Both the position numbers and the translations under genes were made by a program. This document shows, piece after piece, positions 26,407 through 33,421 of a stretch of DNA of 64,000 nucleotides (position 1 is its first letter; every line of letters begins with the position of its first letter). The notes under the pieces are model-generated. The model was given only the letters and a program-made list of their open reading frames with translations. It ran no database searches and was not told the DNA's origin. The DNA lies in assembly GCA_946185535.1 (NCBI GenBank), contig CAMHJX010000006.1, positions 62,001 through 126,000 of the forward strand, written 5' to 3'. The DNA comes from an uncultured Bacteroidales bacterium. Lineage in GTDB: Bacteria > Bacteroidota > Bacteroidia > Bacteroidales > F082.

Positions 26407-26437
26407 AAAAAAAAGACGAGGCGACCGAAATCGCCCC
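26407..26437 (-). terminator. tracrRNA intrinsic terminator
   Basis: 7-bp GC-rich stem (26418-26424 with 26431-26437), CCGAAA loop, then T8 on the minus strand. Confidence 0.9.
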
Positions 26438-26493
26438 GAACTTGATGTTTTCACAACGGAATAATCCTTATTGTGAATTGCTGCATATCTTGT
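26407..26493 (-). ncRNA. tracrRNA of the type II-C CRISPR system
   Basis: On the minus strand, a TATTTTTG box (26498-26505) is followed by ACAAGATATGCAGCAATTCA, the start of a 23-nt anti-repeat (26471-26493). This pairs with the first 27 nt of the crRNA repeat as three helices (11, 5 and 7 bp) separated by a 1-nt and a 2-nt bulge on the crRNA side. A nexus-like segment follows, in which GGATTATTCC can fold and TTCACAA/TTGTGAA are complementary. A 7-bp terminator hairpin (GGGGCGA / TCGCCTC) and a run of eight Ts complete it. Predicted length is ~85-90 nt. It is antisense to, and upstream of, cas9. It should bind crRNA repeats, allow RNase III processing and load Cas9. Confidence 0.9.
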
Positions 26494-26497
26494 GCTG

Positions 26498-26505
26498 CAA
26501 AAATA
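26498..26505 (-). promoter_or_regulatory. -7 box TATTTTTG for tracrRNA
   Basis: TAnnTTTG match whose expected start point (~26491) coincides with the first anti-repeat bases. Confidence 0.75.
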
Positions 26506-26547
26506 GGTATTTTTTCCAATACTGCAAGAGTTTTTTGAAAAAAATAC

Positions 26548-26555
26548 TAATTTTG
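26548..26555 (+). promoter_or_regulatory. -7 box TAATTTTG for the cas9-cas1-cas2 operon
   Basis: Lies 31 bp before the cas9 ATG, divergent from the tracrRNA promoter. Confidence 0.55.
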
Positions 26556-26586
26556 ACAAAAATTTGAATTGATAAATAGTTGACTT

Positions 26587-29500
26587 ATGAAGAAAATACT
26601 AGGACTTGACTTAGGCACCAACAGCATTGGCTGGGCTGTGGTGAAAGCGGAAGAAATAACTCGAGAGAACGAGACAAATTATTTGAAGCCGACAGGCTTA
26701 AGTACGGCAGGAAGTAGAATTATTCCCATGTCGGCTGATATACTGGGCAATTTTGATGCTGGCAATTCCGTGTCGCAAACTGCGGAACGAACAGGATATA
26801 GAGGTGTGCGCCGTTTACATGAAAGGTATTTGTTACGTAGGCAACGTCTTTTGCGTGTCTTGAAACTAATGGGATTTTTGCCTGAACATTTTGCTAAGCA
26901 GATTGATGAACAAGGAAAGTTCATTGATTATGGTGAGCCAAAGTTAGCATGGAAAAAGGATGAATGTGGCAAATATGATTTTGTTTTCAAAAGCTCTTTC
27001 AATGAGATGTTGACGAATTTTGCTCAACACCAGCCTCAAATCCTTGCCGACGGCAAGAAAGTTCCTTACGACTGGACTATCTACTACCTTCGTAAGAAAG
27101 CTCTGACACAAAGACTTACAAAAGAAGAACTTGCTTGGATTCTATTACAGTTTAACCAGAAGCGTGGTTATTACCAATTGCGTGGCGAGGATGAGGATGA
27201 ACAGCATGACAAACTTGTCGAGTTTATCGCTCAAAAAGTGGTTAGAGTTGAAGCCACTGATGAGAAAAAGGGTGATGATGTTTGGTACAATGTGTATTTG
27301 GAGAACGGCATGGTCTATCGCCGCTCGAGCAAAATGCCTTTGGATTGGGAAGGAAAAGTTAAAGAGTTTATCGTTACTACTGATCTCGAAAAAGATGGAA
27401 CGCCCAAAAAAGACAAGGAAGGCAACATCAAACGTTCTTTTCGTGCTCCAAAAGAGGATGATTGGACTTTGCTAAAGAAGAAAACGGAGTTCGACATCGA
27501 TAACAGCCGCATGACTGTCGGTTGCTACATCTATGACCAGTTGCTCCAAAAGCCTGACCAAAAGATTATTGGTAAGTTGGTTCGCACGGTTGAGCGTAAA
27601 TACTATAAAGATGAGCTGCGACTTATTCTTGAAACACAGGTTGCCTTGATACCTGAATTGAAGGATGATGCTTTATATAATAGGTGTCTTGAAGAGTTAT
27701 ATCCAAACAATGAATCGCACCGAAAAAACATAGCTAAACCTGACTTCATTAATCTATTCATCAACGACATCTTGTTTTACCAACGTCCATTGAAGAGCAA
27801 GAAGTCACTCATCAGCGATTGTCCATACGAGAGTCACTTCGACAAGGATGGCAATGAGCATCCCGTAAAGTGCATTGCCAAATCGAATCCGTTGTTCCAA
27901 GAGTTTCGCCTTTGGCAATTTGTGCAGAATTTGCGTATCTACCAACGGGAAAGAATTGTCAGTGATAGTCAGTTGGACTTGTTCGGAAACATTTCGGCAG
28001 GGAGACTTCAGACAGATGTGGATGTTACAGATGAGTTTCTGAAAACTGAAGATGATTATGTGAAGCTCTTTGATTGGCTCAACGATAGGGCATCCATTAA
28101 ACAGGACACATTGCTCAACTCATACTTTAAGTTCAAAAAGGAGAAGGGCAAGGATGTGTATCCCTATCGTTGGAATTATGTGGAGGATAAGGAATACCCT
28201 TGCAACAAAACGAGGGCGGCAATGCTTGACGGATTTCTGAAATGCAGCATTGATGCTGGTTTACTCACCAGAGAAAAAGAAATGTCGTTATGGCATGTTC
28301 TTTATTCTGTGGAAGACAAGATGGAAATAGTCAAGGCATTAAAAAAGTACGCTCAAAAGAATAATCTTCCCGATTTGTTTGCTGAGGTGTTCGCCAAAGT
28401 CAAACCGTTTAAAAAGGACTATGGATCGTATTCCGAAAAGGCTATCAAGAAGTTGCTGCCGCTAATGCGGATGGGCAAGTATTGGAGCGCTGATGCTATT
28501 GACAACAAGACAAAAGAACGTATTGACAATATGCTGACGGGCGAATACGATGAAAACATCAAAAACCGAGTGCGCGAAAAGGCTATTAACTTGACTGACA
28601 TTGACCATTTCAAAGGTCTGCCTATTTGGTTGGCATGCTACATTGTCTATGACCGCCATTCGGAGGCCAAGGAAATCGGGAAATGGGAAGAGCCCGAAGA
28701 CATCGACTGCTATTTGAAGGAATTCAAACAGCATTCGCTACGCAATCCCATTGTGGAGCAGGTCGTTACGGAAGCGCTACGTACCGTCCGTGACATCTGG
28801 AAACAGGAGGAACGAATTGATGAAATTCATTTGGAACTAGGTCGCGAGATGAAAAATCCCGTCGACAAGCGCAAACGGATGACAGAAAATATCCTGCAAA
28901 ATGAAAACACTAACTTGCGCATCAAGGCGATGCTGATGGAGTTCACAAATCCCGAAATGGGCATTGAGAATGTTCGCCCATATTCGCCAAGCCAGCAAGA
29001 CATTCTGCGAATTTACGAGGAAAATGCGCTTGAAAATCTGACCAAGGATGACAAGGATTTTGATTTCGTTAGCAAAATTTCCAAGTCGGCACAGCCTTCA
29101 AAATCAGATATAATAAGGTACAAATGTTGGTTGGAGCAGAAATATCGCTCACCCTATACTGGCGAAATGATTCCGCTTGCCAAGTTGTTTACTTCGGCAT
29201 ACGAAATTGAGCATGTGATTCCTCAATCACGCTACTTTGATGATTCGTTTACCAACAAGGTGATTTGTGAAAAAGAAGTGAACGGGCTAAAAGACCGCCA
29301 ACTTGGTTTTGAGTTTATCAAGAATCATCATGGTGAAAAAGTGCAACTGAGCCAAGGCAAAGTGGTGGAAATTATGTCGGTGGAGGCATACGAAAAGTTT
29401 GTGAAAGAACATTATGCCAACAACCGCACGAAGATGAAGAAATTGCTGATGGACGACATCCCAGACGGTTTCATTGAGCGGCAGTTGAACGACAGCCGAT

Positions 29501-32157: not shown

Positions 32158-32489
32158 TGGATCGTTTCAGTGAATACAGGATTATGTGGGTGCTGGTGCT
32201 TTTCGATTTGCCGACGGAGACGAAGAAAGAGCGTAAGGCATACGCCACTTTTCGCAAGCGCATCATGGCTGACGGATTCACCATGTTCCAGTTTTCCATT
32301 TATCTGCGGCACTGTCCGAGTTATGAGAACGCAGAAGTGCATATCAAGCGGGTAAAGTCGTTCATGCCCGAGTTTGGCGACATCGGGATCTTGTGCATTA
32401 CCGACAAACAATTTGGCGAAATGGAGATTTTCAGTAACTGCAAGCCTAAGGCGGTGGACACGCCTTGCCAACAATTGGAGTTGTTTTGA
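32154..32489 (+). CDS. cas2: CRISPR-associated protein Cas2
   Basis: About 111 residues from ATG 32154 ([20 protein letters not shown]), with the ferredoxin-like fold and the conserved Asp of [14 protein letters not shown] (D18). It bridges two Cas1 dimers in the integration complex. It overlaps cas1 by 4 bp and is followed by a hairpin terminator, then the array. The open frame reaches back to 32106 inside cas1, but the overlapping ATG is the natural start. Confidence 0.95.
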
Positions 32490-32514
32490 ATCGGAAAAAA
32501 TGGTCATAACAAAG

Positions 32515-32544
32515 AAAAATCCAACTCGAATGAGCTGGATTTTT
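32515..32544 (+). terminator. Bidirectional terminator between cas2 and the CRISPR array
   Basis: AAAAATCCA / TGGATTTTT arms with an inner CTC/GAG pair. It can stop cas-operon transcription rightward and array transcription leftward. Confidence 0.75.
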
Positions 32545-32551
32545 CTTTTCT

Positions 32552-32582
32552 GAAACAACATCTAAATTGTTGTGGCTCTTTG
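32552..32582. other. Repeat-like remnant at the cas2 side of the array
   Basis: Contains GAAACAAC (32552-32559), GTTGTG (32569-32574) and CTCTTTG (32576-32582). These are pieces of the CRISPR repeat in its crRNA orientation, separated by a few unrelated bases. It may be a decayed repeat or part of a leader/anchor sequence. Confidence 0.35.
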
Positions 32583-32597
32583 TTTTACCCATATCGT

Positions 32598-33421
32598 GTT
32601 GTTTCAAAGAGCAAAGATACAAGATAAATGCAAGCAATTCACAACAGCATTGGTATGATGCCCCCGGTGCCAAGGGTTGTTTCAAAGAGCAAAGATACAA
32701 GATAAATGCAAGCAATTCACAACTCGCCACCGTCCATACCTTCACCGACAACGGTTGTTTCAAAGAGCAAAGATACAAGATAAATGCAAGCAATTCACAA
32801 CCTATCTCGCCCAACTCCTTGACGGACTTAGTTGTTTCAAAGAGCAAAGATACAAGATAAATGCAAGCAATTCACAACTTTTTCATAATGTTGATTATTT
32901 GTGGTTTTGTTGTTTCAAAGAGCAAAGATACAAGATAAATGCAAGCAATTCACAACAATGTTTGTTGTTGTTTCAATTGAGTAGGGTTGTTTCAAAGAGC
33001 AAAGATACAAGATAAATGCAAGCAATTCACAACTCCACAATTGCGCCCAACTCAAACACGCATGTTGTTTCAAAGAGCAAAGATACAAGATAAATGCAAG
33101 CAATTCACAACACAAGGTAACGGCAATTTTGACCGCCGCCGGTTGTTTCAAAGAGCAAAGATACAAGATAAATGCAAGCAATTCACAACTGCTTCTCCTG
33201 GATTTAGCCATCTTGTTAAGTTGTTTCAAAGAGCAAAGATACAAGATAAATGCAAGCAATTCACAACGTTTCTAAGAATGGTAGTTTCGGCTATAATGTT
33301 GTTTCAAAGAGCAAAGATACAAGATAAATGCAAGCAATTCACAACGTAAAACTGCGTGGTGACCAAGGCAACGCGGTTGTTTCAAAGAGCAAAGATACAA
33401 GATAAATGCAAGCAATTCACA
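32598..33421 (-). CRISPR. Type II-C CRISPR array: 11 repeats, 10 spacers
   Basis: Repeats of 48 bp start on the plus strand with GTTGTTTCAAAGAGC and end with GCAAGCAATTCACAAC. They lie at 32598, 32676, 32754, 32831, 32909, 32986, 33064, 33142, 33220, 33298 and 33376. Spacers are 30 bp, except the third and fifth (29 bp), and all differ. Ten repeats look identical; the last, at 33376, loses its final two matching bases after 33421. Reading on the minus strand, each repeat begins GTTGTGAATTGC, complementary to the tracrRNA anti-repeat. It also contains TATCTTTG at repeat positions 27-34, a promoter box firing into the adjacent spacer toward cas2. crRNA orientation is therefore right to left. 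No spacer match was searched. Confidence 0.98.

Follow-up and report, generated by a model that had tools for sequence, protein, structure and literature searches.

Does the Cas9 locus on this stretch of DNA from an uncultured Bacteroidales bacterium (64,000 nucleotides, analysed as a whole and called the window here) form a working and self-contained immune system, and which of its parts stay fixed when the effector changes? Between the tracrRNA gene and the CRISPR array there are only cas9, cas1 and cas2, with csn2 and cas4 absent, which is the gene content of type II-C, and Cas9, Cas1 (with the type II model) and Cas2 all pass the NCBIfam cut-offs (Table 1). All the parts of the complete II-C locus with 11 repeats that the first-pass annotation described are present. 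In the relatives cas1 starts at an ATG internal to the frame given for the window. Judged on its sequence, the window apparently holds an intact and ordinary bacterial Cas9 immune locus, which very probably works and belongs to a clade of Cas9s of ~1500 residues mainly from Bacteroidales. Taking the parts together, we consider it probable that this is a working II-C locus whose PAM cassette has been exchanged by recombination, lying in a slot where modules are swapped behind a conserved WYL regulator.

Table 1. Features of the locus and its flanks, in window positions.
Feature	Position	Strand	Remarks
ald, beta-eliminating lyase gene	24348-25376	+	Left slot flank; Pfam PF01212
WYL-domain regulator gene	25380-26282	-	300 aa from ATG at 26282; Pfam WYL
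Putative WYL-promoter -7 box	26302-26309	-	TATTTTTG
Palindromic candidate operator	26324-26346	.	ACTGTTTCATATTTTGAAACAGT, 23 bp; kept in CRISPR-linked WYL orthologues
Divergent putative -7 box toward cas9	26354-26361	+	TATTTTTG; I-C counterpart points to cas3
tracrRNA	26407-26494	-	Anti-repeat ~26471-26494, short stem, terminator hairpin, T-run ending 26407
Putative tracrRNA -7 box	26498-26505	-	TAnnTTTG
Putative cas9-proximal -7 box	26548-26555	+	TAATTTTG
cas9	26587-31200	+	1537 aa; TIGR01865, 391 bits (cut-off 100)
First variable cassette of cas9	30237-30686	+	aa ~1216-1366; like L004/L007, unlike L002
Second variable cassette of cas9	30987-31136	+	aa ~1466-1516; like L002, unlike L004/L007/L003
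cas1 (type II)	31213-32157	+	TIGR03639, 2.5e-93
cas2	32154-32489	+	Best reading; TIGR01573; PADLOC Cas2_II
CRISPR array	32598-33423	-	crRNA strand inferred; 11 repeats of 48 nt, ten spacers of 29-30 nt
Spacer 10	33346-33375	-	DNA cytosine-methyltransferase-like gene matched in genomes of three relatives at 2-3 mismatches; flank caaaac
tmem	33417-33857	-	146 aa; right slot flank; stop codon inside terminal repeat

Alignment with relatives places D8, E875-H876-N899 and an HHAMD motif in the window's Cas9 at what we take to be the RuvC and HNH catalytic positions. The glutamate in place of aspartate before the HNH histidine had been singled out as a departure. It is the norm in this group, with Glu-His in 68 of the 69 rows that cover the site and Asp-His in one (L072), where the 72 rows of the alignment include the window twice, copies of single loci from two collections and three C-terminal fragments without the HNH site. 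CbCas9 (chain 8iyq) also has glutamate at the aligned position, the histidine being altered in that dead variant, and E875 was accordingly dropped as a peculiarity. The same applies to length, as 1537 residues fall within the 1448-1612 spanned by 47 of 51 non-identical relatives. As a Cas9, the protein is a new member of an already known kind. Its closest solved relative is CbCas9 (PDB 8iyq and related entries), which matches at 1470 bits over nearly the whole protein, although the CbCas9 chain has 1442 residues and the window's Cas9 carries additional ones around 1205-1279. CbCas9 is named as the partner of PcrIIC1 in the excerpted text of PMC13153721, whereas the cas operon of the window, with only cas9, cas1 and cas2, has no accessory gene and no pcrIIC1 (a PIN-domain gene). 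In several relatives cas9 and cas1 are separated by an additional gene, which is missing from the window and also from the close relatives L002 and L004.

The tracrRNA upstream of cas9 and antisense to it was found as annotated, with anti-repeat, promoter box and terminator. The predicted repeat-tracrRNA duplex has an energy of -30.1 kcal/mol, compared with a mean of -17.8 (SD 3.3, best -27.7) for 200 shuffles. Conservation of the anti-repeat, the lack of which had been named at the outset as grounds for refutation, is seen in related loci. Of 51 non-identical Cas9 loci, the window among them, 49 have a similar tracrRNA ahead of cas9; none was found in L009, where the contig begins 337 nt upstream, or in L018. 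The anti-repeat also co-varies with the repeat. For the 36 loci with both parts, pairing with the locus's own repeat is 13 of 13 in 22 anti-repeats and 12 of 13 in 14, while against the different repeats of partner loci the mean is 11.45 and 13 is reached in 12 of 848 pairings. Rfam at gathering thresholds gave no match to a tracrRNA family anywhere in the window. The same search found two tRNAs. The description of the locus as complete type II-C with a cognate tracrRNA is supported. As to its being self-contained, the extra cas9-cas1 gene of several relatives is absent and a linked WYL regulator adjoins the tracrRNA.

Each repeat in the window holds GTTGTG...TATCTTTG, a predicted promoter of the Bacteroidetes type, and the terminal repeat ends in CACATT instead of CACAAC. 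Of 31 distinct repeats, 23 contain TAnnTTTG, placed 13-16 nt ahead of their end, compared with 4.4% of shuffled repeats. Transcription from the promoter inside each repeat, on the minus strand, would give pre-crRNAs that pair with the tracrRNA, itself encoded on the minus strand, and direct Cas9 to phage-like DNA beside a PAM, probably NNAAAC; a whole promoter in every repeat is a plausible reason for a repeat length of 46-48 nt. In Flavobacterium columnare the II-C array is likewise read from repeat-borne promoters toward its variable end, with 36 bp repeats in which the excerpt of PMC8092290 names only a TTG element. The locus resembles the Flavobacterium II-C systems, as far as the excerpts describe them, in these promoters, in the direction of reading and in a variable Cas9 C-terminus, and differs from that of F. 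columnare in the longer repeats and fuller promoter motif.

The C-terminal part of cas9 is a mosaic. Nucleotide identity in the bin 30987-31137 is 98% with L002 and 56, 55 and 51% with L004, L007 and L003, which are close relatives of its cas9 outside this second cassette, while the flanking bins show 78-97% identity. The PAM-interacting end of the window's Cas9 (residues ~1466-1516) therefore seems to be a cassette swapped in from a relative. Fast divergence under selection, with no recombination, might be proposed instead, as PAM-interacting ends vary quickly and the Cas9 C-terminus of F. psychrophilum is variable (excerpt of PMC10309648), but this is very unlikely given the sharp edges of the cassette, its near-identity to L002 and the reverse pattern of affinities in the first cassette. 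On the swapped-cassette reading, a stretch of 50 residues may carry the PAM preference, pointing to a compact unit through which PAMs change.

Spacer targets give some indication of what that preference might be. In the three loci with the window's type of cassette, five spacers, including one of the window's, have a target at three or fewer mismatches, and AAAC stands at +3 to +6 in four of the five, in the case of L024 spacer 4 beside one of its two targets. For two other cassette types AAAC lies beside the target of one of ten spacers at the same threshold, and the targets fixed no PAM for either. We tentatively read the PAM of loci with this cassette as 5'-NNAAAC, which resembles the NNAAAG given for F. 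psychrophilum in the excerpt of PMC10309648 and differs from it at the last position; where the PAM had been called unknown there is now a candidate from the target flanks of cassette-sharing loci. A strict link between PAM and cassette is unproved because L002 spacer 15 (flank cctaac), the other target of L024 spacer 4 (ggagtt) and L006 spacer 55, which has gaaac with a different cassette type, all deviate. The counts leave out six of 47 L009 spacers, one of 40 from L006 and two of 21 from L008, as well as matches lying 60 nt or less from a repeat-like motif, which excludes arrays, and matches in family genomes are lower bounds because two candidate places were scored per genome.

The phage and plasmid search suggested in the first-pass annotation gave nothing beyond chance: the window's spacers had only chance-level matches in 50,697 phage records and none in 72,556 plasmid records, and patterns of 20-22 nt from spacers 1, 7, 8 and 10 had no match in viral contigs. 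Apart from the window's own array, 51 spacers found one thing in 393 genomes of the order, a partial match of 21 nt for an L024 spacer. Searching the own genome with the same spacers gave the array and nothing else, a weak null for self-targeting by the window's spacers because two of eight and two of six candidate places were scored. Could the locus then be decaying or inactive? Its array is short, just one of the ten spacers has a convincing target and an accessory gene may have been lost from the empty cas9-cas1 interval. Against this, the catalytic residues, an open frame of 1537 codons, an intact tracrRNA and near-identical repeats are all present, and L002 and L004 have no accessory gene either, so that decay is improbable.

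The gene divergent from cas9 encodes a WYL-domain protein (a longer frame of 342 residues, to 26408, uses an upstream TTG) that matches the PADLOC CRISPR-associated WYL model PDLC01652 at 3e-24. The AlphaFold model is of modest confidence (pLDDT 76.9, pTM 0.53), and its nearest Foldseek matches, DriD, PafBC, CapW and BrxR (E ~1e-12 to 4e-6, 10-22% identity), mix an activator (DriD) with repressors (CapW, BrxR). As regards the HTH-WYL-WCX architecture of BrxR- and CapW-like regulators, the WYL domain of the window's protein passes the Pfam cut-off, and the WCX domain is below it in the orthologue at L276. The WYL protein would bind the palindromic operator and control its own promoter and the divergent cas promoter. 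The pattern TGTTTCAN5TGAAACA has a single exact site in the 3.67-Mb genome, with none for the reversed-pattern control, and the operator is exact in 11 of 13 WYL orthologue loci compared with none of seven weaker paralogue loci. A separate comparison, in which the WYL start was located in 13 of 17 loci tried, likewise has the operator kept in CRISPR-linked orthologues.

Sixteen neighbourhoods of WYL orthologues of at least 58% identity were inspected, some of them cut, nine with II-C, four with I-C, one alone (L277, without CRISPR) and two at contig edges. It is unlikely, in our judgement, that this is just another II-C locus, one that is not regulated by WYL and has the WYL gene and the swaps beside it only incidentally, as parts of a defence island. 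WYL genes of weaker similarity are indeed widespread, with 79 of 99 genus genomes having one at E<=1e-10, the L277 gene stands alone, and two II-C loci, L003 near typA and L006 next to ald, showed no WYL gene. However, the orthologue is divergent from an adjacent cas operon in 13 of the 14 judgeable neighbourhoods, with two CRISPR types at more than one site and one shared operator.

Sister genomes carry different modules in one slot. The slot between ald, which is present at E<=1e-100 in 85 of 99 genus genomes, and tmem, which matches no Pfam family, is ordered ald-WYL-II-C-tmem in the window and in G118, where Cas9 is 27% identical to the window's. In G095 (locus L276, on a 340-kb contig) it is ald-WYL-complete I-C-tmem, with Cas1c, Cas4, Cas7/Csd2, Cas8c/Csd1, Cas5c, cas3_core and cas3_HD passing NCBIfam cut-offs and the repeat core in 60 copies, and in G098 ald is directly beside tmem. 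Compared with G095 or G118, the window's flank genes pgm, ald and tmem have nucleotide identities of 95.2-97.7%. Near-identical flanks around different Cas9s or CRISPR classes amount to a natural swap experiment that asks what stays fixed, and the answer is the regulator, the operator and part of a repeat: in G095 the WYL gene and operator are retained, and 36 nt at the tmem end match the II-C repeat exactly. The slot would thus exchange different Cas9s or type I-C behind the conserved regulator, which we infer to control whichever module is present.

A fuller reading, to which we give slightly less than even weight, is that the WYL gene, operator and divergent promoter form a fixed control socket, with I-C and II-C modules swapped at the ald and near-typA regions of one genus and WYL controlling the module in place, perhaps in answer to single-stranded DNA, to which its structural relatives may respond. 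The II-C modules at the ald site would include three mutually distant Cas9s, the I-C module of G095 would recently have taken the place of a II-C one, and the controlled II-C transcript would cross the tracrRNA gene in antisense before reaching cas9, which would couple the supply of guides to that of the effector. The WYL regulators BrxR, CapW, DriD and PafBC, and Sll7009, which represses a I-D locus (excerpts of PMC9122601 and PMC9122588), have in common with the window's WYL protein a palindrome near the promoter and a defence neighbourhood; the subfamily here differs in lying next to II-C modules in some genomes and I-C modules in others. For Flavobacteriales, the legend of Extended Data Fig. 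9 in PMC12669027 describes in situ shuffling of Cas9, where a single locus similarly combines cas1 genes that are related with cas9 genes that are distant, whereas the exchange here extends to class 1 (I-C), with the WYL gene, operator and terminal II-C repeat remaining.

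The first-pass annotation of a type II-C locus with cas9, cas1, cas2, eleven repeats and a tracrRNA was borne out in gene content and coordinates by gene, repeat and family-model checks (Table). The locus and a WYL-domain regulator gene occupy a slot between ald, a beta-eliminating lyase gene (24348-25376, plus strand), and tmem, which encodes 146 residues (33417-33857, minus strand).

Features of the WYL gene and II-C locus in the window
Feature	Position	Remarks
WYL-domain gene	25380-26282	300 aa; divergent from cas9
Putative operator ACTGTTTCATATTTTGAAACAGT	26324-26346	between WYL gene and tracrRNA
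tracrRNA		minus strand
cas9	26587-31200	passes NCBIfam cut-off
cas1	31213-32157	passes NCBIfam cut-off
cas2	32154 (best start)	passes NCBIfam cut-off
CRISPR array	32598-33423	48-nt repeat, 11 copies; spacers 29-30 nt

Different modules fill this slot in relatives. Genome G118 carries a II-C locus with a 1419-residue Cas9 (27% identity) flanked by WYL (93%), ald and tmem. A third Cas9, 1432 residues long and confirmed with family models, follows ald and WYL in G056, where cas1 is at 89%. A 340-kb contig of G095 reads tmem (98.6%), 60 copies of a I-C repeat core, I-C cas genes, WYL (93%) and ald (98.5%), and at its tmem end 36 nt are the same as in the II-C repeat; in the neighbourhood of the window locus the I-C repeat matches at no more than 19 of 32 positions. 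The flank genes of the window are 95.2-97.7% identical to those of G095 or G118. The simplest reading is that II-C was replaced by I-C in the G095 line. In G098 ald is directly beside tmem. The tmem stop codon of the window falls within the terminal CRISPR repeat (33417-33423), and the end of tmem differs in G098, which has no CRISPR at this place. Near typA, at a distance of at most three genes, this WYL subfamily adjoins II-C in three loci (L004, L024, L286) and I-C in L279, and stands alone in L277. Sixteen WYL neighbourhoods, with two further WYL fragments (G057:C43, G058:C2) outside the count, comprise nine with II-C, four with I-C, one alone and two ending at a contig edge. L003, near typA, and L006, beside ald, show II-C and no WYL gene. 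Ald sites with neither CRISPR nor tmem next to the gene are also numerous in the genus, and the slot is thus one of several arrangements.

The exact palindrome TGTTTCAN5TGAAACA occurs once in the genome, at the putative operator. Among the best WYL hits it is found in 11 of 13 orthologue loci, window included, and in none of seven loci of WYL paralogues (at most 46% identity); of the other two orthologue loci, L262 has one mismatch and L267 is cut by the contig end. The motif is present in all 13 aligned WYL upstream regions, 53-65 nt before the gene in 12 and farther off in L277, where three exact copies (3622, 5660, 6067) lie near the orphan WYL gene. TAnnTTTG, described as the Bacteroidetes promoter box (PMC10309648), flanks the operator on both sides facing outwards, and the cas-side box is present upstream of both II-C and I-C. 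The AlphaFold model of the WYL protein resembles DriD, PafBC, CapW and BrxR, the last two of which are described as binding their palindromes and setting promoter activity (PMC9122588, PMC9122601). WYL dimers would likewise occupy the operator and control how active both promoters are, and the protein may be switched by a nucleic-acid signal. Transcription from the outward promoter of II-C loci would cross the tracrRNA gene in antisense and continue into cas9, which has an additional, closer box at 26548. Literature searches of openly licensed PMC papers listed no report of a WYL regulator common to I-C and II-C in one slot. Residues 66-300 of the WYL protein are 97-98% identical to the G095, G105 and G118 orthologues, residues 1-65 only 75-77%. 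The protein is also matched by PADLOC PDLC01766 (Cas3c) over profile positions 130-310, a hint that WYL-Cas3 fusions exist elsewhere.

The repeat-tracrRNA duplex has an energy of -30.1 kcal/mol; 200 shuffles average -17.8 (SD 3.3). Of 51 non-identical Cas9 loci, 49 have a tracrRNA, whose anti-repeat co-varies with the repeat: all 36 own pairs form 12 or more of 13 Watson-Crick pairs, against an average of 11.45 when the partners come from loci whose repeats differ. Anti-repeat and terminator, together with the side of the targets that has consistent flanks, place the crRNAs on the minus strand, the one that does not encode cas9. TAnnTTTG lies 13-16 nt from the repeat end in 23 of 31 distinct repeats (4.4% of shuffled repeats) and is missing from eight (L015, L016, L019, L020, L021, L036, L040, L042); two of these, L019 and L021, come from Fibrobacter. 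Promoters carried by II-C repeats have been described (PMC8092290). The full box sits 23-26 nt past the start of the repeat's GTTG, and its inclusion would reasonably account for the repeat length. Sequence similar to the TATCTTTG half of the repeat is also present in the relatives L110, L112 and L113 outside their arrays, and may represent ordinary promoters.

The window Cas9 adds a new member to II-C. Across the cas9-cas2 stretch, nucleotide identity of the window to L004 and L007 is 81-100% outside bin 30987-31137. In that bin, which covers the second of two variable cassettes (residues ~1466-1516 of the PAM-interacting end, 30987-31136), identity is 56% to L004, 55% to L007 and 98% to L002. 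The first cassette (residues ~1216-1366, 30237-30686) shows the reverse, with 89-100% to L004 and L007 and 63-72% to L002, and cas9 is therefore a mosaic. In situ Cas9 shuffling has already been published (PMC12669027). Sorted by eye, the 51 Cas9s divide into several types at the second cassette, and the window shares its type with L002, L008, L017 and L024. In all, five spacers from the window, L002 or L024 have targets with at most three mismatches. The target flank of window spacer 10 is caaaac in three genomes, and those of the other four are caaaac, taaaac, cgaaac or ggagtt, and cctaac, giving the consensus NNAAAC as a tentative PAM; by eye, no motif was seen on the opposite side of these targets. 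Ten such spacers from two other cassette types gave AAAC for one (L006 spacer 55, three of its five targets). Spacer 10 matches a gene in G101, G129 and G119 that, read from its translation rather than a family search, is DNA cytosine-methyltransferase-like. A stretch matching L004 spacer 3 occurs in 62 of 173 family genomes, its own array apart, and L004 spacer 2 and L006 spacer 25 have exact matches in their own genomes outside the array.

One genome-contig scan gave 45 loci with best-segment identities of 52-92%, many from rumen Bacteroidales MAGs and a small number from Fibrobacter, Bacteroides, Parabacteroides and Prevotella records; 53 of 173 family genomes match at E<=0.001. Glu precedes the HNH His in 68 of 69 relative sequences covering the site. 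In L034, L035 and L056 cas9 is divided between two reading frames. The window lacks the Bro-N-domain gene (Pfam PF02498) that lies between cas9 and cas1 in nine loci (L018, L023, L027, L031, L032, L041, L282, L284, L286), and L003 has a short copy-like ORF. The L282 gene matches PADLOC candidate PDC-S13, and the I-C operon of L278 begins with a Bro-N-domain gene (L278:5017-5841). Elsewhere the cas9-cas1 gap is filled by a RhuM (L011) or DUF1016 (L014, L020) gene.
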